From positions 1 to 34,691 of IMG/VR virus record IMGVR_UViG_3300045258_000060: 34,691 nt of DNA. One strand, given 5' to 3'. Under the pieces are notes generated by a model. That model worked only from the letters and a program-made list of their open reading frames with translations. It had not been told where the DNA came from and did not search any database. The position numbers and the translations under genes were made by a program. The stretch's first letter is position 1; each line of letters begins with the position of its first letter. The stretch comes from a virus. This document shows positions 1-34,691 of this stretch, in pieces.

Positions 1-71
1 CACGTTGTTGTATGTCGGCATTTGCCCAACCCCGATTTTATAGGGCGGAACGTGATAGGCGGAGCAGACAA
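1..71. repeat. 71-bp terminal direct repeat, left copy
   Basis: Bases 1-71 match bases 34621-34691 without a mismatch. The portal reading frame runs unbroken when base 1 is followed (on the minus strand) by base 34620, so the repeat marks a circular or circularly permuted molecule of 34,620 bp. The short length and its position inside a coding gene fit an assembly overlap better than a packaged terminal repeat. Confidence 0.95.
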
Positions 72-927
72 ACTCGGCGGTGAACTTCAACTGCTCGATA
101 AGCTGGGCATCTTCAGCCGTCATCGTCAGTGTCTCGAACTTCAGCCCGTCCCCCAGGACCGCGATCTTCGTGGCGCCATTGGCCCCGCCGTACTGAGTCT
201 CCCAAGTCTCCTTGAGCCTCTTTGCGTTCTCGGCATCAATCCGTCCCGGTGCCGACAGGATGCCGGATGGGCGAACCCCGTTTGCCGCCAGCCTTGCGCC
301 GGCGCGTTGAATGTTGGTTGCCTGCGTCGCTGCAAGGGCTGCAGCATAGAGCGGGGAAATCCCGACTAGGGGATGGAACAGGCAGTTGAAGCGGTCGTGA
401 ATGATCTCACGGGCTGGGACGACAACTTCCATTGCCTCGATGCCCGAGATGTTATCCGTGCTGAGCTTGTAGAATATCTGTCCATCATCACTGACGAGCG
501 TTTGAACCCGGTCTGGGTTGAGGACGTACAGAGCCGTGACCACATTGCGGCCGTCGCGGCGTTTCAGGACGTAGGTGTTGCCACGGGCCAGTTTTGAATT
601 AACCCAGTTCTCAAAGAACTGGATTCGGTTCTGGAAATGGTTCGGCTTGCGGAGGACAGGCGAATAAGCCGGGTTAGTTGTTTCCTCCCAGACCTTGCCG
701 TTCAGAGTTACCAGCTTGACCCTCAATTTGGCGATGTCAGAACAGATAAGGGTGTGGCAAGCGAAGGGCGCGAAGTTGGCTAAAGCCTGGTCGGCCGTCA
801 GTTCTTCGTTACGCTGCCAAGCCCCTGAGAAGGGCTCGCGAATGATCGACGTCCACGATCCGCGGTTGTCAGGCGGGGAGAGCGTCTTTTCTTTTGCCCG
901 CGTGATCTGAAGGCCGAAGATTTCCAC
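1..927 (-). CDS. HK97-family portal protein, N-terminal part (cut by window edge)
   Basis: The portal forms the dodecameric ring at the capsid vertex through which DNA enters and leaves. This piece codes for the first 309 residues. The rest is at 34201-34620, giving about 448 residues in total, a normal size for the Phage_portal family. The start is a GTG at 927 that shares a base with the stop of the upstream glycosyltransferase. GGGAGG lies 7 bases ahead of it, a good ribosome site. The protein begins VEIFGLQITRAKEK and contains typical portal segments such as GNTYVLKRRDGRN, the clip-region NPDRVQ and the late YHVPPYKIG. Portal normally follows terminase directly; here it follows a fibre and sugar-transfer block and lies beyond the capsid gene. 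The family assignment is from memory of the motifs. Confidence 0.92.
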   Translation of the reverse strand, partial: MEIFGLQITRAKEKTLSPPDNRGSWTSIIREPFSGAWQRNEELTADQALANFAPFACHTLICSDIAKLRVKLVTLNGKVWEETTNPAYSPVLRKPNHFQNRIQFFENWVNSKLARGNTYVLKRRDGRNVVTALYVLNPDRVQTLVSDDGQIFYKLSTDNISGIEAMEVVVPAREIIHDRFNCLFHPLVGISPLYAAALAATQATNIQRAGARLAANGVRPSGILSAPGRIDAENAKRLKETWETQYGGANGATKIAVLGDGLKFETLTMTAEDAQLIEQLKFTAEFVCSAYHVPPYKIGVGQMPTYNNV

Positions 928-1649
928 TAAGCGGCCTCCCTCTGGGCTATCCGATAATTATTGGTTGTGAATGGGTCGATGTTAATTGGGGCAATCGTCC
1001 AGGGCTTGATCTTGCCCGGGAAGAACAGGATGCGAGGCATGATCTTCTTGGCTACGGCTTGGTAAATTGAACCCCGGCCGTACCAATAAACTCCATCCCT
1101 CTCGGCCCATGTCTTTTCCTTGGGGCCCAGCTTGAGAGCCAGCCAGGCTTGATCGGAACCAACGAACTGTTCCCCGCTGAGCCTTGCGCCCTCTGCGTTG
1201 AAGCCCTCGTAAACCTTGGGACGGCAACCCGCCTTAATCAGCATCATCGAACCATTATAGGGACGGTCAGACTGAGTGCCCTTGAACAGCACCAAATCAT
1301 CCTTGCGATCAAACAACGGGTCTAACGGACCTCCGATGACGCAATCCAAATCCATGCAGACGAACCGCTCGCCGAAGATATTCGCGGCATCGTGCCGGAA
1401 CATTGAAAGCCTGCGGTAACAGTTCGGCTTCCTCGGCCCCCACTTGGGCATGATGTCGTGGAACTCGCCCGGGGGCTTGATGATCTCGATGTTTGAACCG
1501 ATCCCCTTGGGCATATCGGTAACGCAGGCGATCCGGTGCGGCATGGAAAGGTTGCGCCTCACCATGTCGGCCCAGATGTTGACATTGTTTGCCGTGAACT
1601 TGGTTCGTCCCTCAGGTTGCGACCAAAGCCAGGTTAGGACAGTAATCAC
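927..1649 (-). CDS. Glycosyltransferase, GT-A type with DLD metal motif
   Basis: A 240-residue protein that probably transfers a sugar from a nucleotide-sugar donor. The N-terminus (VLTWLWSQPEG) and the strand-ending VCMDLDCVIGG, with the DLD triad at residues 100-102, match GT-A fold phage glycosyltransferases; the DxD acids bind the metal and nucleotide diphosphate. There is no membrane segment or signal peptide. The start is a GTG at 1649 overlapping the stop of the collagen-like fibre gene, so the two are probably translationally coupled. I infer that the fibre, or another virion protein, is the acceptor. An alternative target is a host surface glycan. Enzyme class is fairly sure, substrate unknown. 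Confidence 0.8.
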   Translation of the reverse strand: MITVLTWLWSQPEGRTKFTANNVNIWADMVRRNLSMPHRIACVTDMPKGIGSNIEIIKPPGEFHDIMPKWGPRKPNCYRRLSMFRHDAANIFGERFVCMDLDCVIGGPLDPLFDRKDDLVLFKGTQSDRPYNGSMMLIKAGCRPKVYEGFNAEGARLSGEQFVGSDQAWLALKLGPKEKTWAERDGVYWYGRGSIYQAVAKKIMPRILFFPGKIKPWTIAPINIDPFTTNNYRIAQREAA

Positions 1650-2422
1650 GCGGTTACCGCCTTTATGACGCTGAATTTAATGACAACCGCCTCCGAAAGA
1701 GACCCCGCAGAAGTGTTGCGAACAGCGATTGATGCAGCGCCGGCCCCGGTCACGCGGCCATTGATCAGATAAGGCCCAATCGTCCCGCCCGAATGATGCG
1801 ACACGACCAGCATATCCCCCGCGGCTACTGCGCTGTTATTCAGAACAAATGTAGCAATGGCTCCCGCAGCCAACGCCGCGTTGGTCATTGTGATCTCGCC
1901 AGTCAACTTGTTAAGCGTGACGGCGTTTGACTTGGTTCCTGACTGGGCAACCGTTCCGCCCGCGCCGGCTGAATAGCCGAAGGCGGTTGAAGCTGTGCGA
2001 ACTCCATCGACGCCGGGGTTTCCCTGAACCCCTTGGATGCCCTGAATGCCTTGCGATCCGGCGTTGCCTTGGATGCCGGGATTGCCCTGCGCCCCAGTGT
2101 CTCCGGTATCGCCCTTGACGCCTTGGATGCCTTGCTGACCAGCCGCGCCATCTTCCCCGTCATTTCCGGGTGGCCCCTGTATGCCTTGGATTCCTTGCTG
2201 CCCAGTTTGGCCGGTCGCTCCGTCTTGGCCTGGCGCCCCATCCTGACCATCAGCACCGGGCGCTCCATCCTGCCCGTCAACCCCCGGCAAGCCTTGTTCG
2301 CCGGGATCGCCCTTATCTCCCTTCGGCCCTGTGCCGCTACCAACGCCGCCAGCCTGTAGCGCCTCAACGCTTTCCCATAGGCATTTGAGTTGCCGGAAAA
2401 GTCCGATCGGTCGTGCGGCCAT
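1646..2422 (-). CDS. Collagen-like phage fibre protein
   Basis: 258 residues in three parts. Residues 1-31 form a helical N-terminus (LFRQLKCLWESVEALQ) likely to anchor or trimerise the protein. Residues 32-140 are 36 uninterrupted Gly-X-Y triplets rich in GIQ, GQD and GDT, which should form a collagen triple helix. Residues from about 145 to the end form a beta-rich C-terminal domain containing DMLVVSHHSGGTIGPY, of a kind seen on phage fibres. The position between capsid and portal suggests a head fibre rather than a tail fibre, but this is inference. The gene starts in a TGATG overlap with the methyltransferase-like gene upstream, and its stop overlaps the start of the glycosyltransferase gene. 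Confidence 0.85.
   Translation of the reverse strand: MAARPIGLFRQLKCLWESVEALQAGGVGSGTGPKGDKGDPGEQGLPGVDGQDGAPGADGQDGAPGQDGATGQTGQQGIQGIQGPPGNDGEDGAAGQQGIQGVKGDTGDTGAQGNPGIQGNAGSQGIQGIQGVQGNPGVDGVRTASTAFGYSAGAGGTVAQSGTKSNAVTLNKLTGEITMTNAALAAGAIATFVLNNSAVAAGDMLVVSHHSGGTIGPYLINGRVTGAGAASIAVRNTSAGSLSEAVVIKFSVIKAVTA
2003..2329 (-). repeat. Collagen Gly-X-Y coding repeat
   Basis: This is the stretch coding for 36 Gly-X-Y triplets plus a closing Gly. At DNA level it is an imperfect 9-bp-phased repeat in which blocks such as ccttggatgcc recur on the plus strand. Repeats of this kind are prone to length change by slippage or recombination. It is protein-coding, not a CRISPR or tandem satellite. Confidence 0.9.
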
Positions 2423-3345
2423 CAGGCGGCCTCCTTTGCGAACACTCCTTGACGCTCAAGATACTGAAACAACGGAGCATAGCGGGTCACGAAGTCCGGA
2501 CGGGCTTCGCGTAGATAACGCCATTTTTTAACGATTGAGGCGGGCTCGCCTGCATAGATGCCTTTGAGGCGCTGAACGGCTTCTTGATGGAAACCAAGAT
2601 CACAGAGGAACATGGGCTGCCCGCAATCGAACAGCGCCTTTTTCTCAGGGGCAACGAAGTCCCGCCAATAGAGCCAAGCCTGTTCGATCTCTTCAGGCGA
2701 CCATGCGCCCAGGTCGAAAGCGGCTAGCGATGCTTCGTTCTTCGACCACTGAGACTTGACGCGGAAAACCAGCGTGGTCCCCGGGACAACCGCTTCCACG
2801 AACTCAATGTGATCCCGCAGCCGATAGAGGCAGGCCGGGATTTCGTATGATGGAAAGTGGCAGAAGTCCTGCCACGCCATGATTGAGCCGGGTTGAAGCC
2901 CTTTCCTCAGAGCGGTCATCACCGCAGAGATTGCCGGAACCCGCTTGGGCGCGTCAGTGACCAGAAGTGCTATCGGATCCGATGACCATTTGATTGCTTC
3001 GATCTTGCCCTGGTGAGGCTCGACGTAGGCCATCAAGTCCCCAAGATTATCCTTGAAGCTATCGAGGCAGGGGCCGACAGGAACCTTGTCGATGCCATTG
3101 GTCTTATAGAAGGCTTTCACCTTGCCGATATGCCCCGGCTTCGACCTGAAGTAGTCATAAACCTGGGCCTTTAGAACGCTGTCACGGTCACGAAGGCCGG
3201 CCGCGATGTAGGCGGTTGAAGCCCCCATCCATGCGCCAAGCTCGATAACCGCTCCTGGCCCAGCTTCCTTCGCCAGCCGATAGTAGCATTCGCGCTCAGC
3301 ATCGGTCGTCATGGCCGGAATGTTCAGGCCAGTTGGTGCCGGCAT
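2422..3345 (-). CDS. SAM-dependent methyltransferase-like protein (Methyltransf_24 type)
   Basis: 307 residues from ATG 3345, chosen because GGGGAG sits just upstream and the longer frame would lie deep inside the previous gene. The N-terminal half has a Rossmann motif I, AVIELGAWMGASTAY (residues ~32-46), with later segments ALLVTDAPKRVP and SIMAWQDFCHF resembling strands 4 and 5 of Methyltransf_24 proteins, which are often found in polysaccharide loci. The C-terminal ~90 residues, rich in Trp and Leu (IEQAWLYWRDFV), do not look like methyltransferase. It overlaps the upstream ParB-like gene by 22 bases and the downstream fibre gene by one base. It probably helps build or methylate a glycan or fibre; the acceptor is unknown. 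Confidence 0.68.
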   Translation of the reverse strand: MPAPTGLNIPAMTTDAERECYYRLAKEAGPGAVIELGAWMGASTAYIAAGLRDRDSVLKAQVYDYFRSKPGHIGKVKAFYKTNGIDKVPVGPCLDSFKDNLGDLMAYVEPHQGKIEAIKWSSDPIALLVTDAPKRVPAISAVMTALRKGLQPGSIMAWQDFCHFPSYEIPACLYRLRDHIEFVEAVVPGTTLVFRVKSQWSKNEASLAAFDLGAWSPEEIEQAWLYWRDFVAPEKKALFDCGQPMFLCDLGFHQEAVQRLKGIYAGEPASIVKKWRYLREARPDFVTRYAPLFQYLERQGVFAKEAA

Positions 3346-3779
3346 ATAATCTCCCCAGCTATTTTCGTTTCGAGAACCACGGCCATTGCCAGCCGATGAT
3401 TGCCCTGGTTGCCGATAAACATTTCCCCGCCCCTGCCGATGAGCAGCTTCGGAAGTGAGCCGTTGGGCCGAAATCCGTTCTTCTCGAGGTCGGCAAACAT
3501 GCCGTCGACCCGCGTGTAATATTGCGAGAGCAAATCCCTCATACACCATTCGCCGCGGACTGATTCCCCGGCGTCGAACCGCCTCTGGTAAAGGTCGGTG
3601 AACAGGTCTGTTTCTTCCCAGCGTTTGCCTTGGGAATATCTCTCGATAATCGAGCGATACTTGGCCGAGCCCTCAATCGGGAACCGCCTCTCGACGTCCC
3701 AATCCCCTCCCGCTCGGCCTTTCAAATCATTGTGCGGCGAAATCTTGTACTTGATCTCGCCAGGCTCAACCCAAATCAC
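3324..3779 (-). CDS. ParB/sulfiredoxin-fold-like protein of unknown role
   Basis: 151 residues. The C-terminal segment KLLIGRGGEMFIGNQGNHRL (residues ~111-130) resembles the GxHRL core of ParB-like domains, which bind nucleotides. The rest, including DWDVERRFP and SIIERYSQGKRW, is unassigned. No DNA-binding HTH of a true plasmid ParB is visible, so partitioning is unlikely. Proteins of this style occur beside methyltransferases and glycosyltransferases in phage and surface-sugar loci, and that is the setting here: it overlaps the methyltransferase genes on both sides. A nucleotide-handling or regulatory role in the modification block is inference only. Confidence 0.55.
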   Translation of the reverse strand: MIWVEPGEIKYKISPHNDLKGRAGGDWDVERRFPIEGSAKYRSIIERYSQGKRWEETDLFTDLYQRRFDAGESVRGEWCMRDLLSQYYTRVDGMFADLEKNGFRPNGSLPKLLIGRGGEMFIGNQGNHRLAMAVVLETKIAGEIICRHQLA

Positions 3780-4339
3780 TTGCGCCCAACGACGATTTGA
3801 TCCCCGTCGAAAACCTGTGAGGCAATCTCGTACCCATGCCGAACAAGAAGGGCCGTCATGCCTTCAAGCGAGGCGTAAAAGTTATCCGCGCCCTCGCTGG
3901 TTTCACCAGTGCGCCATTTGTTAGCCCGGTTGCCGTTCCCGCATAGGACTACGTTGGGAACATGCTTGGCGACGGCTGTAAAAACCATGTCCAGAGCGTC
4001 GCCCAAGTAATAGATCATGCGAACGGCAACTAGGGTATCCATGCCCTTGAGCCGTTCGAGGTTGTCCCTGATGTCCCCGCAAATGAACCTTGGGCCCGAG
4101 ACTTCCATCCCCCAGGCGTCCCTGAGGATCTGCGCAGTTTCGTGGCGTTCCGGGGACCGCTCCAGTGCAATGACTTCCTTCCCCTGCTTGGTGAGCAGTA
4201 AGGCCAGGACGCCTTCAGCCGATCCGATCTCGATGATCCTTTGCCCCGGGATATGCGGGAGCAGGCGCCTATATTTCGAAGGGACTTCGCCGCTCAGAAT
4301 GGCGGCTTCGTTCTTGCGGTACGCTAGACTGCCGGTCAC
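3776..4339 (-). CDS. Class I SAM-dependent methyltransferase
   Basis: 187 residues. A clear Rossmann motif I, IIEIGSAEGVLALLLT (residues ~35-50), is followed by the acidic strand-2 end VIALERSPER and a motif-4-like FICGDIRDNLERL, matching small-molecule or sugar methyltransferases. There is no target recognition domain and no NPPY or DPPY motif, so a nucleic-acid adenine methylase is unlikely. The start ATG overlaps the stop of the small post-capsid gene (ATGA), and the gene ends in an ATGA overlap with the ParB-like gene. It is the first enzyme gene of the modification block between capsid and portal. Likely acceptor: a sugar or a virion protein, not determined. Confidence 0.75.
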   Translation of the reverse strand: MTGSLAYRKNEAAILSGEVPSKYRRLLPHIPGQRIIEIGSAEGVLALLLTKQGKEVIALERSPERHETAQILRDAWGMEVSGPRFICGDIRDNLERLKGMDTLVAVRMIYYLGDALDMVFTAVAKHVPNVVLCGNGNRANKWRTGETSEGADNFYASLEGMTALLVRHGYEIASQVFDGDQIVVGRK

Positions 4340-6079: not shown

Positions 6080-6700
6080 TCAGGCACCTTTCGTATGAAT
6101 CTTGTTGATGACGAATGGCGCCCTGTCCTGGGCATCCTTACCCAGCCGCACCACGACAGCCTTTTTGCCTTCAGGCGGCGTGTCGGGTTCGCTGGGAATC
6201 TCTGTGTCGACAATGCCCTCGGCTTCGCGATAGCCGGCATCAATCGACTTGATCTGTGTAATCAGGGCTTCCGCGTTCATCGGGATTGTGACCGCTGAAA
6301 GCTCGAAAATCTCGACCTCGGGAAAGGTCATCCCGCCGCTCTTGTTCATTTCCGGCTGGGCCAGGGGAAGAAAACCAATCGACGTAGCCCTAACGAGCCC
6401 GTGCTTGATCTCGCCCCAAGCCGTGTCAACGCGATCCTTGAGCGGGCCGGATTCCTTGACGACTGGGATTTGAGCTTCGAACGGGGTTCCCTTGGCGGTC
6501 GGGGTTTCGAACGTAACACTTCCGATGGGCTGATCGTGCTTGTGCTGCCAAAGCAGGGGAAGCGGATTCTTGAACTTCATTCCCTTGTGGTCGATCACAT
6601 CGCCGATCCGGTCAGGAGTCGGCGTGGTGGCGATACCGCGGAACACGCGGCTTTCCTCGTCGATCGATTTGACCTCGAGGACGGAATAGGCACGGTTCAT
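6080..6700 (-). CDS. Prohead protease, HK97 family (peptidase S78)
   Basis: 206 residues. It should cleave the capsid N-terminal scaffold and itself during head maturation. The core fits S78: VFRGIATTPTPDRIGDVI, the histidine segment LLWQHKHDQPIG with His53 as the likely catalytic base, and the serine segment LVRATSIGF with Ser107 as nucleophile. The C-terminal ~50 residues are an acidic then basic tail, common in this family and perhaps self-cleaved. AAGGAGG precedes the ATG. The first 21 bases of the gene, with part of its ribosome site, are duplicated 199 bp upstream in the mini-ORF at 6831-6899. Confidence 0.92.
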   Translation of the reverse strand: MNRAYSVLEVKSIDEESRVFRGIATTPTPDRIGDVIDHKGMKFKNPLPLLWQHKHDQPIGSVTFETPTAKGTPFEAQIPVVKESGPLKDRVDTAWGEIKHGLVRATSIGFLPLAQPEMNKSGGMTFPEVEIFELSAVTIPMNAEALITQIKSIDAGYREAEGIVDTEIPSEPDTPPEGKKAVVVRLGKDAQDRAPFVINKIHTKGA

Positions 6701-6712
6701 TGCGAACCTCCT
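6680..6712 (-). repeat. Protease 5-prime end, source copy of duplicated segment
   Basis: Bases 6680-6700 are identical to 6879-6899 (21 of 21), and the adjoining ribosome site shares GAACCTCCT on the plus strand. This pairs with the repeat copy inside the mini-ORF. Confidence 0.9.
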
Positions 6713-6830
6713 TGGATTGGGCTATTCAGGGATTGGTTGCGGTAATCGCGAACGGCAAAGTGTGACGGGTGCCCCCTGAGCATTCCAACGCTGCCAAAAA
6801 CGAAGCCTAGCGAGTCAGGGCCGCAACCAC
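6701..6830. other. Non-coding spacer between mini-ORF and protease gene
   Basis: About 130 bases without a convincing gene on either strand. It ends in the protease ribosome site. I see no clear promoter or terminator hairpin. In the other copy of the junction (6900-6909) the equivalent gap is only 10 bases, so this spacer is an insertion relative to that copy, or has been lost there. Confidence 0.6.
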
Positions 6831-6899
6831 TTAAATCACCAAAAATTCATATTCGGGAGCGGCTTCGACTTCGTTCGGGACGGAATAGGCACGGTTCAT
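6831..6899 (-). pseudogene. Chimeric 22-codon mini-ORF: protease start fused to terminase end
   Basis: ATG 6899 to TAA 6831, preceded by a strong AGGAGG. It reads MNRAYSV, the protease N-terminus, followed directly by PNEVEAAPEYEFLVI, the exact C-terminus of the large terminase. Bases 6831-6878 differ from terminase bases 6910-6957 at six positions, all synonymous or stop-for-stop (Pro, Leu, Val, Ile and stop codons changed). It therefore looks like a recombination scar carrying the terminase end of a related phage rather than a recent copy of this one. It could be translated as a microprotein, but no function is evident. Confidence 0.8.
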
Positions 6900-6909
6900 A
6901 AGAACCTCC

Positions 6910-6957
6910 TCAGATTACGAGAAATTCATATTCAGGAGCGGCTTCGACTTCGTTCGG
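6910..6957 (-). repeat. Terminase 3-prime end, source copy of duplicated segment
   Basis: A 48-bp coding end matched by 6831-6878 with 42 of 48 identities. All six differences leave the encoded peptide unchanged. Confidence 0.9.
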
Positions 6958-8436
6958 CGCCACCCCGAAAGCCATTGCGAGGGCAACCATCCCGTCAATG
7001 CGGGTGGCTGACTTCTGCTTGTTCAATTTCCGGTTGCCAGCTGGATCCGATGTCACCACTGCGTTAGCAGCGCACATCGTCAACACCGGATGCCCGCCGT
7101 GGCGAACCTTGCCCTCGAGCAATACCGCTTCGGTATCTCTGAGAGCCGGCGACATCGAGACGAACCCCTGTCCGAACTCGACGAACAGTTCCTCCAGCCG
7201 TTCTTCCGTGAACCCGGCTTTCAATAACCACGGCCGCAGATGTTTCATTGCCCAGCGGTCGAACGCGCATTTCTTCCAGTTGTGGGTCTGGTCGAACTCG
7301 TACAGTTCGCGGGCAACCCATTCATATTCAACCGCTCGTCCTGGCGTGGTCAGGAGAAACCCGTCCTTGTGCCAGGTGTCATACGGAACGCGATCAGACC
7401 TAGACTTTTCCCTAAGTCCCTCGCCCGGCAGCCAGAAGGTCGGCTTCGTTTCCCATGCATCCTCGATCCATGCAATCGGAACGTGGGCCGTAAGGTCTGA
7501 AGTAGAAGCGAGATCGAGGCCGGAATAAACCTCGGCCCGCCCCCAGTCTTTCGATATTTCCCCGTTGCAACCCTGCCATACAGTCCGAGAAATAAACGGC
7601 GCGTTCATCTCGACGCGCTGGTTCAGGATCAGGTTTCGAAATTCAGGCTCCCGGCTCGGCATGCGGCGGGCATCTTCAGCCATCGCCATGACTTCCGCGG
7701 CGTTGAGGAAATCCCCCATTGCCGGGTTTGCCTGCCGGATCGTCTTTTCCTTGAACGGGTCGTCATCGAGGCTGGCAGTGTAGAGCGACAAAACTACTCT
7801 AGGATCATTCCCCGCCAAAGCGTCATCTATCAGGATCGAAAGCAAGTCCCCATCAGACGGAGCTTGGGTGGAAATGATGACCGACAGCGGGGCATCATGG
7901 GCACCGACCGCGGTTTCAAGCGCATCGTACAGTTCCGACCTTGGGCCTTTGACCTGTCCCAGTTCGTCGTGAACAATGAAGGCCGGCGACAACCCGTAGG
8001 CCGTCGAAGCCTCCGCGGATAAAGCCTTGTAAAGTGTCCCAAGCTCGGGACAGAAAAGCTCCTTGATTGTGTCCCGGATGACGATGACCGGATTAAGCGT
8101 GGGCGATAACCGAACTACCTTGGCCGCAAGCTTGAACAGGATCGCGGCCTGGTCTTTCGACTGGGCGGCGCTGTTCAACTGAGAATTGGCTCTCGCTTCG
8201 TCGCCGCAGAGATGCAGAAGCAGCAGGAAGGCGGCCAAGGTAGTCTTTGCGTTCTTGCGTCCGAATGAAACGATGGCCCTGCGTGTTCCGGCCGGGTTAT
8301 CGTAAATCTTCCTGATCTCGTCCTTCTGCCATTCCCTCAACCGGACGGGTTTTCCGACATCCTTTCCCTCGGGAATGCGGCAGTGGAACTCGATCCAGTC
8401 TATATTGTCCTGGCCCCTGCTTACCGACGATGCCAA
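6910..8436 (-). CDS. terL: Terminase large subunit
   Basis: About 508 residues; the packaging motor ATPase and the nuclease that cuts concatemers. Walker A is SFGRKNAKTT (residues ~57-66), Walker B is AFIVHDELG (~152-160, Asp-Glu), and the RNase H-like nuclease domain shows GLDLASTSDLTA with Asp308 and Asp314, then the late IDGMVALAMAFG. This is the HK97-like terminase type. The start is uncertain: the first ATG in frame (8553) would overlap the small subunit by 133 bases, so I prefer TTG 8436, which overlaps by 16. No strong ribosome site marks it. The last 15 codons are duplicated in the mini-ORF downstream. Confidence 0.95.
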   Translation of the reverse strand: MASSVSRGQDNIDWIEFHCRIPEGKDVGKPVRLREWQKDEIRKIYDNPAGTRRAIVSFGRKNAKTTLAAFLLLLHLCGDEARANSQLNSAAQSKDQAAILFKLAAKVVRLSPTLNPVIVIRDTIKELFCPELGTLYKALSAEASTAYGLSPAFIVHDELGQVKGPRSELYDALETAVGAHDAPLSVIISTQAPSDGDLLSILIDDALAGNDPRVVLSLYTASLDDDPFKEKTIRQANPAMGDFLNAAEVMAMAEDARRMPSREPEFRNLILNQRVEMNAPFISRTVWQGCNGEISKDWGRAEVYSGLDLASTSDLTAHVPIAWIEDAWETKPTFWLPGEGLREKSRSDRVPYDTWHKDGFLLTTPGRAVEYEWVARELYEFDQTHNWKKCAFDRWAMKHLRPWLLKAGFTEERLEELFVEFGQGFVSMSPALRDTEAVLLEGKVRHGGHPVLTMCAANAVVTSDPAGNRKLNKQKSATRIDGMVALAMAFGVAPNEVEAAPEYEFLVI

Positions 8437-8843
8437 GGCTTGCTCACTTCGCCCGCATTCTTCGCCGCGGTGCCGGCCGCCTGAGGCGTATACCTCGACT
8501 GGTTGGTGAGACGGAGCTTCGTCGCCTTGTCGGCAAGGGCTTTCGTCTCGCAATCCCTGGTACGGACCAATCGCGTATAGCGGTCTAGTCCCTCATCGGT
8601 ATCAAGCCACTGGGAATCGAAACTGTCGATCTTCTCAGTCAGCAACCGGGCCGAGCTAACGTGCCTGCAATACTCCATGAGCAGCTGCTGAAGGGCAGGT
8701 GTCTTGAAGATGTCCAGCCCCTCACCCGCAACCGTCCGGGTCCAGATGTCCTGTTGTTCGGCGGTTAATTCGTCCGGCGCCTGGGGGCGGCTGTCTATGG
8801 ACCCAACCACAACCGACAGGGCCGCTGCTGACTTGCGGGCCAT
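8421..8843 (-). CDS. terS: Terminase small subunit, P27 family
   Basis: 140 residues. The small subunit recognises the packaging site and loads the large subunit. The Ala-rich start MARKSAAALSVVVGSIDSRP followed by PDELTAEQQDIWTR and FKTPALQQLLMEYCRH is the Terminase_4 (P27-like) pattern. The C-terminal TKLRLTNQSRYTPQAA also fits. It sits directly upstream of and overlapping the large subunit, and downstream of an HNH nuclease, the standard order for this terminase type. The ATG follows GGAGAC. A perfect GC-rich palindrome lies 14 bases upstream of the start. Confidence 0.92.
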   Translation of the reverse strand: MARKSAAALSVVVGSIDSRPQAPDELTAEQQDIWTRTVAGEGLDIFKTPALQQLLMEYCRHVSSARLLTEKIDSFDSQWLDTDEGLDRYTRLVRTRDCETKALADKATKLRLTNQSRYTPQAAGTAAKNAGEVSKPWHRR

Positions 8844-9077: not shown

Positions 9078-9193
9078 CAGAACAGCAGGATGATGAGGAT
9101 CGCGACCGATACGCAGAAGTGAACCGCGTTGAGGTATTGCCATGCTGCTATCTTGGTGAGTTGGGCTTCTACGTTGGTGGTTATGTTGGCCAT
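9077..9193 (-). CDS. Single-span membrane microprotein, 38 residues
   Basis: ATG 9193 lies inside the end of the HNH gene and the TGA stop overlaps the next ATG. The protein starts MANITTNVEAQLTKIAAWQY and then has a hydrophobic C-terminal stretch with VSVAILIILLF, giving one likely transmembrane helix. The overlaps on both sides support it as real. No function is known. Confidence 0.65.
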   Translation of the reverse strand: MANITTNVEAQLTKIAAWQYLNAVHFCVSVAILIILLF

Positions 9194-9459
9194 CCGTCTG
9201 CTCCTATCTCTACCTTCTGCTTATGTCCGAACTGTTCAGCAGTGCGCTTGGTGTGGTGATCGTCGCATAGGTTGCGTGTGTTGCTGTCTATGTCCTGACC
9301 ACCCAGTGCCAATGGGTTGATATGATCCACTACATTGGCGGGCACTATACGGTTCTGGGCTAGGCAGTCCTCACATAACCCATGTGTGCGCTGTAGCCGG
9401 CGCTCCCTTAGGGCCTGTCCCTTACGTCCCCTTATGCGGTCAGCCATCCCTGGCTTCAT
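9181..9459 (-). CDS. HNH endonuclease upstream of terminase
   Basis: 92 residues (88 if it starts at ATG 9447). A zinc-type HNH motif is complete: CEDCLAQ, then VDHINPLALGGQDIDSNTR, then LCDDHHTKRT, with the DH and final HH in place. Such small HNH proteins next to the terminase genes of HK97-like phages act with the terminase in making the packaging cut, as shown for HK97 gp74 and relatives. It overlaps the upstream 46-residue gene by 20 bases and the microprotein downstream by 13, so it is expressed with the packaging genes. Confidence 0.88.
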   Translation of the reverse strand: MKPGMADRIRGRKGQALRERRLQRTHGLCEDCLAQNRIVPANVVDHINPLALGGQDIDSNTRNLCDDHHTKRTAEQFGHKQKVEIGADGWPT

Positions 9460-16045: not shown

Positions 16046-16317
16046 GTACTTACCAACAGAAGGATATGAGCGGGAGCCTTTTTCGCAATGATAAAAAAGA
16101 GACGGATTCACACCCTGACTACAAGGGCTCGGCCCTGCTGGGCGGCGTGGATCACTGGCTCGACGCCTGGATCAACGAGAGCGCCAGCGGCACCAAGTAT
16201 ATGTCGCTCAAGTTCAAGCCCAAGGAGGGGGCGCGGGGTGTGCCGAATCCACCCCGCGACAACCCGCAGGCGCAACGACCGGGCTTTGATCCTGATGACT
16301 CGGACGTGCCGTTCTGA
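16042..16317 (+). CDS. SSB-like protein with acidic C-terminal tip
   Basis: 91 residues. SGSLFRNDKKETDSHPDYKG and KYMSLKFKPKEG are typical of small phage beta-barrel proteins that replace SSB; the C-terminus ends DPDDSDVPF, very like the acidic DDDIPF tip through which bacterial SSB recruits its partners. It probably coats single-stranded phage DNA and guides ERF or host proteins. It lacks the full length of host SSB (~150-180). Its stop overlaps the nuclease start (TGATGA). Confidence 0.7.
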   Translation: MSTYQQKDMSGSLFRNDKKETDSHPDYKGSALLGGVDHWLDAWINESASGTKYMSLKFKPKEGARGVPNPPRDNPQAQRPGFDPDDSDVPF

Positions 16318-16649
16318 TGACCTTTCTCCCACCCCGTATCAAGCGCGACAGCGGCAAGAAGGACGTTGGGAAGCGTTCGCCCGCGCACCGGAAATGGATC
16401 CGGGGCCACGTTTGCTGCGGGTGTGAGAGTTCCACCGCCATCGAGTGCGCCCACGTTAGGGACGGCACCGATGGCGGCATGGGAATTAAGCCCTCGGATC
16501 GCTGGACGGTTTCGCTCTGCCGAGACTGCCACACTCGCCAGCATCAGATCGGCGAGGCGTCATTCGAGAAAGAGCGCGGGATCAACCTCAAGGCGCTCGC
16601 GGAGGCCTTCTTCAAGGCCAGTCCGCACAGGGGGAAGTTGGAACAATGA
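16317..16649 (+). CDS. HNH-type recombination nuclease (DUF968-like)
   Basis: 110 residues. HRKWIRGHVCCGCESSTAIE then CAHVRDGTDGGMGIKPSDR and VSLCRDCHTRQHQIGEASFE match DUF968/Ref-type HNH nucleases coded in phage recombination loci. Zinc-binding cysteine pairs and the catalytic histidine of CAHVR are present. It is likely a single-strand or branched-DNA nuclease working with ERF and the SSB-like protein. Distinct from the HNH protein two genes upstream. It overlaps the next gene by 4 bases. Confidence 0.82.
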   Translation: MTFLPPRIKRDSGKKDVGKRSPAHRKWIRGHVCCGCESSTAIECAHVRDGTDGGMGIKPSDRWTVSLCRDCHTRQHQIGEASFEKERGINLKALAEAFFKASPHRGKLEQ

Positions 16650-27671: not shown

Positions 27672-28351
27672 TAGCAGCGCCTCACTTCGACAAGAGTCAG
27701 ATCGGCAAAGCCTGCAGCTTGCCAAGTTCTCAATATACTTTCGAAAGCATCGTCGTTTTCAAAGCGAACTTCAACATCAAACATGAAGCCAGCTTTGATG
27801 ATCCCGTCGGCACCGACTTCGGGAGTTGGCGGGACATTGAACACCACCTCACCGCCTGGTCTCGTCACTGTGTATTCAGTGTCCTCAATCAGAGTTCCGT
27901 CCATCGAGACTAGGACGGTCGAAACCACTGGAAGATATATGTTACGGTCATAGGTCTCACTCCCGACGGAATAAGTCCTGACCAGCTGGAATGTGTCCGT
28001 GAAGCCATCGGCTGTTCCTATCAATTGGTCGGTCTCGCTGAGAAGTGGTATCAAGTCTTCATCTGGTATGTTAGGGATGTGGTCGATTGAAGCCTTGTCC
28101 ATGGGATCTTGCCAAGGAAACGAATTGAATGGTCCCTTCATTATCAGCCAATGGCTCTTGAGACCCAGGACGACATCGGTTTCGCGGGCAACCGCTTCAG
28201 GGATGATGAAATTGTGAAGTGGGTGCGACCAGTTCTGATTGCGTCGCTCGTTCCCGCCAGCATTCACCTGGATGGATGTGTTCCACCTGGGTGCCGAGAT
28301 GCATGGGTAGCCTGGTACCTCTTCCGGCATGTACTCATCGATGAAGCTCAT
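27671..28351 (-). CDS. Distal tail protein, DUF2460 (GTA gp12-like)
   Basis: 226 residues. FIDEYMPEEVPGYPCISAPR, WNTSIQVNAGGNERRNQNWS and SHWLIMKGPFNSFPWQDPMD show the DUF2460 family, which builds the ring at the end of the tail tube. The C-terminus GIIKAGFMFDVEVRFENDD is also family-like. Directly downstream of the tape measure gene (ATGA overlap), as in alphaproteobacterial GTAs. Confidence 0.9.
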   Translation of the reverse strand: MSFIDEYMPEEVPGYPCISAPRWNTSIQVNAGGNERRNQNWSHPLHNFIIPEAVARETDVVLGLKSHWLIMKGPFNSFPWQDPMDKASIDHIPNIPDEDLIPLLSETDQLIGTADGFTDTFQLVRTYSVGSETYDRNIYLPVVSTVLVSMDGTLIEDTEYTVTRPGGEVVFNVPPTPEVGADGIIKAGFMFDVEVRFENDDAFESILRTWQAAGFADLTLVEVRRC

Positions 28352-34201: not shown

Positions 34202-34691
34202 TAGGCGAGTCCTTTTGCTACTGCGGCCAGCATCTTCGCGGCTTGTGTTTCAGCGTCGTCATTGGCCGGTGGAGGCGTGGCCTCTTTTGGCTTGGCGGTT
34301 CCGAACGGATCATCCTGCGCGTCACGCTTCGCCAAAGCTTCCAGACTGAAGTCCTGCTGCTGGCGATACACCTTGTCGCCGCCTTCGGTCCTCGGGAGGC
34401 TCAACCGTTCGCGGCCCTCGTCAGGCGTGAAGTAGTTCCTGCCCTTTTCGAGCATTTCCATCTGCGTCACACTGTCCATGCGAAGCAGGTTGTCGGTATC
34501 GAACTCGGTTCCGAGGCCAACTGCCCAGCCGAGGCCGCCGAGCCCTTCGTCCAGGCATTCCTCGATGCTTTCGATCAGCACCTGTAAGCACTGGGAATAA
34601 TATTCGACGTTCAATGCCTGCACGTTGTTGTATGTCGGCATTTGCCCAACCCCGATTTTATAGGGCGGAACGTGATAGGCGGAGCAGACAA
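34201..34691 (-). CDS. HK97-family portal protein, C-terminal part
   Basis: Continuation of the portal gene at 1-927; bases 34621-34691 repeat bases 1-71, so the real junction is base 1 to base 34620. The unique part codes for the last 139 residues. AEFVCSAYHVPPYKIGVGQM and NVQALNVEYYSQCLQVLIES are characteristic of HK97 portals. The C-terminus (GTAKPKEATPPPANDD, ending AAVAKGLA) is a Pro/Ala-rich tail. TAA stop overlaps the next gene's ATG. Confidence 0.92.
   Translation of the reverse strand, partial: VCSAYHVPPYKIGVGQMPTYNNVQALNVEYYSQCLQVLIESIEECLDEGLGGLGWAVGLGTEFDTDNLLRMDSVTQMEMLEKGRNYFTPDEGRERLSLPRTEGGDKVYRQQQDFSLEALAKRDAQDDPFGTAKPKEATPPPANDDAETQAAKMLAAVAKGLA
34621..34691. repeat. 71-bp terminal direct repeat, right copy
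   Basis: Identical to bases 1-71; see the left copy. It lies inside the portal gene and adds no new gene. Confidence 0.95.

Follow-up and report, generated by a model that had tools for sequence, protein, structure and literature searches.

The short chimeric open reading frame (mini-ORF) between the genes for the terminase large subunit (terL) and the prohead protease of this phage is very probably a recombination scar, left by the out-of-register joining of two related phages. Comparison with relatives shows that both source arrangements exist, and that the window (the whole stretch of DNA analysed, an IMG/VR contig of 34,691 nt) changes over between them at the point of fusion. One parent would have been an A-type phage, with about 10 nt between the terL stop and the protease start; the other, a close relative of B-type, would have carried a 130-nt spacer between terL and protease. 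A would have been broken after protease codon 7, and B 15 codons ahead of the terL stop. The product would run from A's terL, ribosome site and seven protease codons into B's terL tail, spacer, ribosome site and protease. It would retain an intact terL (from A) and an intact protease with its own ribosome site (from B), and the redundant 199-nt segment between them would include the in-frame fusion of the gene ends. The features concerned are as follows.

6080..6700, minus strand: prohead (head maturation) protease, intact, 206 aa (Pfam Peptidase_S78; phrog_617, phrog_80)
6701..6830, minus strand: putative B-type terL-protease spacer with the inverted repeat TGGTTGCGG...CCGCAACCA, homologous to the 114-nt spacer of relative L086
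6707..6713, minus strand: ribosome-binding site AAGGAGG of the functional protease gene, from the sequence
6831..6878, minus strand: terL 3' end, second copy, from the putative B-type parent (6 silent differences in 48 nt)
6831..6899, minus strand: chimeric mini-ORF of 22 codons plus TAA, MNRAYSV-PNEVEAAPEYEFLVI-stop (protease start plus terL end)
6878..6878, minus strand: putative recombination joint, a 1-nt overlap of the two sources, placed by the repeat ends
6878..6899, minus strand: protease start, first copy, where the A-type segment would end (22 nt identical to 6679-6700; A-type alignments stop here)
6904..6910, minus strand: ribosome-binding site AGGAGGT of the putative ancestral A-type terL/protease joint, now serving the mini-ORF (from the sequence; arrangement as in L003, L007, L010 and L085)
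6910..6957, minus strand: genuine terL 3' end, the 15 last codons plus TGA and first copy of the tail (sequence, repeat comparison)
6910..8553, minus strand: terL, the putative A-type parent's (phrog_9, E 1.5e-108; Pfam TerL_nuclease and TerL_ATPase)

The phage is probably complete and circular, at about 34.6 kb, since a direct repeat of 71 bp stands at both contig ends (1-71 and 34621-34691); the portal gene is split over these ends, with PF04860 matches at 765..1 and 34689..34402 on the minus strand. When the whole window was scanned for direct repeats of 20 nt or longer, the only others to appear besides this terminal repeat were the two families belonging to the terL/protease duplication and one weak 22-nt pair. 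Small terminase, terL, prohead protease and major capsid protein genes were identified. Two small HNH endonuclease-like genes are also present, at 9181-9459 (minus) and 16317-16649 (plus), one of them a few hundred bases ahead of the small terminase gene on its upstream side. The interval between the capsid protein and portal genes (1646-4339, minus) holds a collagen-repeat tail-fibre-like protein and two methyltransferase-like proteins, one just over the Pfam cut-off and the other under it. The portal gene is placed downstream of that for the major capsid protein; in naming what would speak against a local rearrangement scar, the first-pass annotation had referred to phages with portal in the usual position. 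The relative L006 has the same order and lacks the mini-ORF, so scar and portal position look unrelated.

The mini-ORF is read on the minus strand, from an ATG at 6899..6897 to a TAA at 6833..6831, and consists of protease codons 1-7 fused in frame to the final 15 terL codons plus their stop. The stop of terL itself (TGA, 6912..6910) is followed by the ten bases GGAGGTTCTT and then by the mini-ORF ATG; preceded by the A of the terL stop, these bases read AGGAGG. The first-pass description of a 22-codon frame with a ribosome site, joining the protease N-terminus to the terL C-terminus, was correct, as was the identity of the protease part, which extends over 22 nt (6878-6899 and 6679-6700). The second of these copies is the protease gene's own start. 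Start to start, the two copies are 199 nt apart (21 + 48 + 130 nt).

The two terL tails (6831-6878 and 6910-6957) agree at 42 of 48 nt. The six differences fall in five codons (CCT/CCC, CTC/TTG with two changes, GTA/GTG, ATC/ATT and TGA/TAA), and codon comparison bears out the earlier observation that all five are synonymous or stop-for-stop. Six random substitutions in the terL tail would all be silent with a probability of about 2.5e-5 to 4e-4, depending on the transition bias assumed. All six lie in the distal 25 nt, while the 23 nt beside the joint are identical, a weak asymmetry (P about 0.014 to 0.03). Silent-only divergence of this kind is what would be expected of two separately selected terL genes, and the tail in the mini-ORF would have ended the working terL of another phage before the joining, which would explain why the differences are silent only. 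Unlike sequence follows the two tails: 10 nt and the protease start after terL, and 130 nt after the mini-ORF.

The A-type arrangement is found in about ten close relatives (L003, L004, L005, L007, L008, L010, L013, L014, L025 and L085), in which the protease starts 9-12 nt past the terL stop with a ribosome site between. The window has this layout from terL through the first seven codons of the mini-ORF. Its alignments to L003, L007, L085 and L216 cross the terL stop, enter the mini-ORF and stop at rc 27809-27814, which is window 6878-6883 and within 5 nt of the joint; they restart just upstream of the real protease start. The terL of the window is nearest to those of L003, L004 and L007 (78-80%), and its capsid protein to that of L007. 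The protease is nearest to that of L210 (73%), a relative with just 26% identity to the window in terL; the protease looks like a separate mosaic segment.

The B-type arrangement is represented by L086, in which terL is followed by a 114-nt spacer and then the protease. This spacer matches window positions 6701-6830 at 71.9% over 114 aligned positions (E 1.3e-9), and the alignment continues directly into the protease. On the evidence of this one relative, the comparison shows that the 130 nt after the mini-ORF are a terL-protease spacer, whose place would be directly behind a terL stop. We infer the B-type parent from the same homologous spacer in L086, and its terL would end in ...GAATTTTTGGTGATTTAA, followed by TGGTTGCGGCCCTGACTCGC. 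The terL tail of L086 matches the mini-ORF copy at 28 of 48 nt and the real terL at 30 of 48, and L086, which carries the homologous spacer, has no mini-ORF. An inverted repeat, TGGTTGCGG...CCGCAACCA, is common to window 6716-6830 and L086 2314-2410, and changes on both sides are seen at three of its pairs, too little to claim anything from two sequences.

Further copies of the spacer were sought more widely. There was no match in phage records, one chance 27-nt match in plasmids, and, in 385 genomes of one class, only matches of 23-31 nt in 3 genomes. Structured spacer patterns searched in viral contigs returned only L086 and L144, which are one and the same contig, and the remaining matches to a looser pattern were unrelated as judged by eye. 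The reading of the spacer as a widespread element was dropped, as phage, plasmid, viral-contig and genome searches gave no convincing further copies. A mobile element between terL and protease was also considered and rejected: the inverted repeat is there, but no target-site duplication was seen by eye on the flanks in the window or in L086. In the spacers of other relatives, duplicated gene ends gave only matches of at most 17 nt, taken as chance.

The parental arrangements are thus found in relatives, and the duplicated segments have diverged as separately selected genes would (6 of 6 differences silent). Homology at the joint amounts to 1 nt (6878), as judged from the two window copies and not from the parents themselves; because the sources share one base there, the event is best called illegitimate, and it would have been a single non-homologous step. 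The earlier proposal, in which a related phage with a drifted terL supplied the segment and illegitimate recombination joined it on, is supported by the A-type joints and the L086 spacer. The relatives that it pointed to, with the mini-ORF codons in an intact terL, were looked for among viral contigs: no genome with these exact codons was found, an exact 20-mer of the shared terL tail had no match, and a degenerate EYEFLVI-stop pattern had one, unrelated by eye.

Other histories could be written for the same structure. A B-type phage might have duplicated in tandem the 199-nt unit of terL tail, spacer and protease start, and then recombined by homology with an A-type phage over the 22 nt of the protease start, which would replace the upstream part, drop the first spacer and bring in A's terL. 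This route yields an identical final structure, the start-to-start spacing of 199 nt is one full unit of 21 + 48 + 130 nt, and the 22-nt identity of the protease starts could serve the exchange. We consider it unlikely, since it needs two events where one suffices and a duplicated protease start occurs in no relative among 197 junctions; the 22-nt and 23-nt identities between copies nonetheless leave room for such a history or for later gene conversion. A simple tandem duplication in a single phage, after which the copy without a use drifted, would account for the tandem order of the segments, but we give it almost no credence. Unselected drift would not yield silent-only changes (P about 1e-4), as the first-pass annotation had argued, and the tails lead into unlike kinds of sequence, that of terL into 10 nt and a protease start, that of the mini-ORF into 130 nt.

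In favour of an assembly artefact joining two co-occurring strains are the window's origin as an IMG/VR contig and the shortness of the identical stretches (22 and 23 nt). Such an artefact is nevertheless very unlikely, because with a 1-nt overlap no k-mer shared by the sources explains the joint, and because the 71-bp end repeat and the portal gene halves at both ends make the rest of the assembly look sound.

If the mini-ORF is a scar left by out-of-register joining, it would probably be translated as a functionless, harmless by-product, since the ribosome site once used by the protease now stands in front of it. The alternative of a selected small gene, or of a leader peptide controlling protease expression, is extremely improbable. 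In its favour are the good ribosome site, the in-frame fusion, the restriction of the differences to silent ones, and the few compensatory changes that the inverted repeat of the downstream spacer shows in L086. Against it, the mini-ORF occurs in the window only. The other 196 of the 197 distinct junctions, all of which had 300 or more bases ahead of the protease, lack it, and the B-type relative whose spacer is homologous is among them. RNA folding is no better than that of shuffled sequence (z -0.3 for the region and -0.2 for the spacer), there is no match to an Rfam family, here or anywhere in the window, and the end of the mini-ORF lies 130 nt ahead of the protease start, which makes direct translational coupling unlikely. 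A consensus scan found no promoter- or terminator-like sites in the region. The L086 spacer folds with z -2.1, whereas the window spacer is not significant; a structured-RNA reading of the spacer was set aside on that account, three paired changes in two sequences being too little. It is likewise highly doubtful that the fused mini-ORF or the shared inverted-repeat spacer is a selected regulator of the terminase-to-protease expression ratio, kept after recombination. The first-pass alternative of a constrained peptide finds no support in the other 196 distinct junctions, and conservation of the mini-ORF in many phages, which had been named as an outcome that would speak against a scar, was not seen in the 197.

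The gap between terL and protease holds cargo of up to 2.2 kb in many relatives (L119, L134, L107, L130, L062, L071, L072 and L104). A hydrophobic small ORF of about 56-99 codons recurs in these gaps, for example MSLLVFAIVVLIVVGIVCAIAYQIPFPPGL... and MTLTGLLLGLINICIIVAVL..., and looks like a small membrane protein.

Joints made by unequal-crossover duplication carry gene ends duplicated in tandem order and an in-frame fusion at the joint. The joint in the window is like them in both respects, and unlike them in that its copies would come from two diverged parents and not from sister molecules. A literature search on 'quasi-duplication' in bacteriophage found nothing. The joint belongs to a known kind, namely phage mosaic joints near gene boundaries. 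That such joints lie near gene boundaries without recognisable homology is an established picture, exemplified by mycobacteriophages Brujita and Island3 (PMC3029335). The present joint resembles that type of illegitimate exchange in its position at a gene boundary, the retention of functions and the lack of usable homology, and differs in that the crossover is out of register, with duplicated gene ends left behind and both parental arrangements readable. Relaxed homologous recombination by phage Rad52-like recombinases has been proposed as the main route to mosaics between diverged relatives, in which small gene fragments change hands more frequently than entire modules do; how the share of this route compares with that of illegitimate exchange is under debate (PMC3945230). 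That mechanism needs some homology at the joint, whereas the joint in the window shares 1 nt; the mechanism could have been at work at another place, such as the right-hand side inside the protease.

How a phage mosaic joint arose is often untraceable. Here, duplicates of both gene ends have been preserved, and they make directly visible the two parental arrangements, the near-lack of homology at the joint and the fact that each gene survived. For the debate on illegitimate versus relaxed homologous exchange, the joint is one modest but clear-cut case. For annotators, it carries the warning that a short ORF with a well-spaced ribosome site is not necessarily a gene when it lies at a joint of this kind. 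The mini-ORF is best read as a clear fossil of the ordinary shuffling of phage genomes rather than as a new gene.
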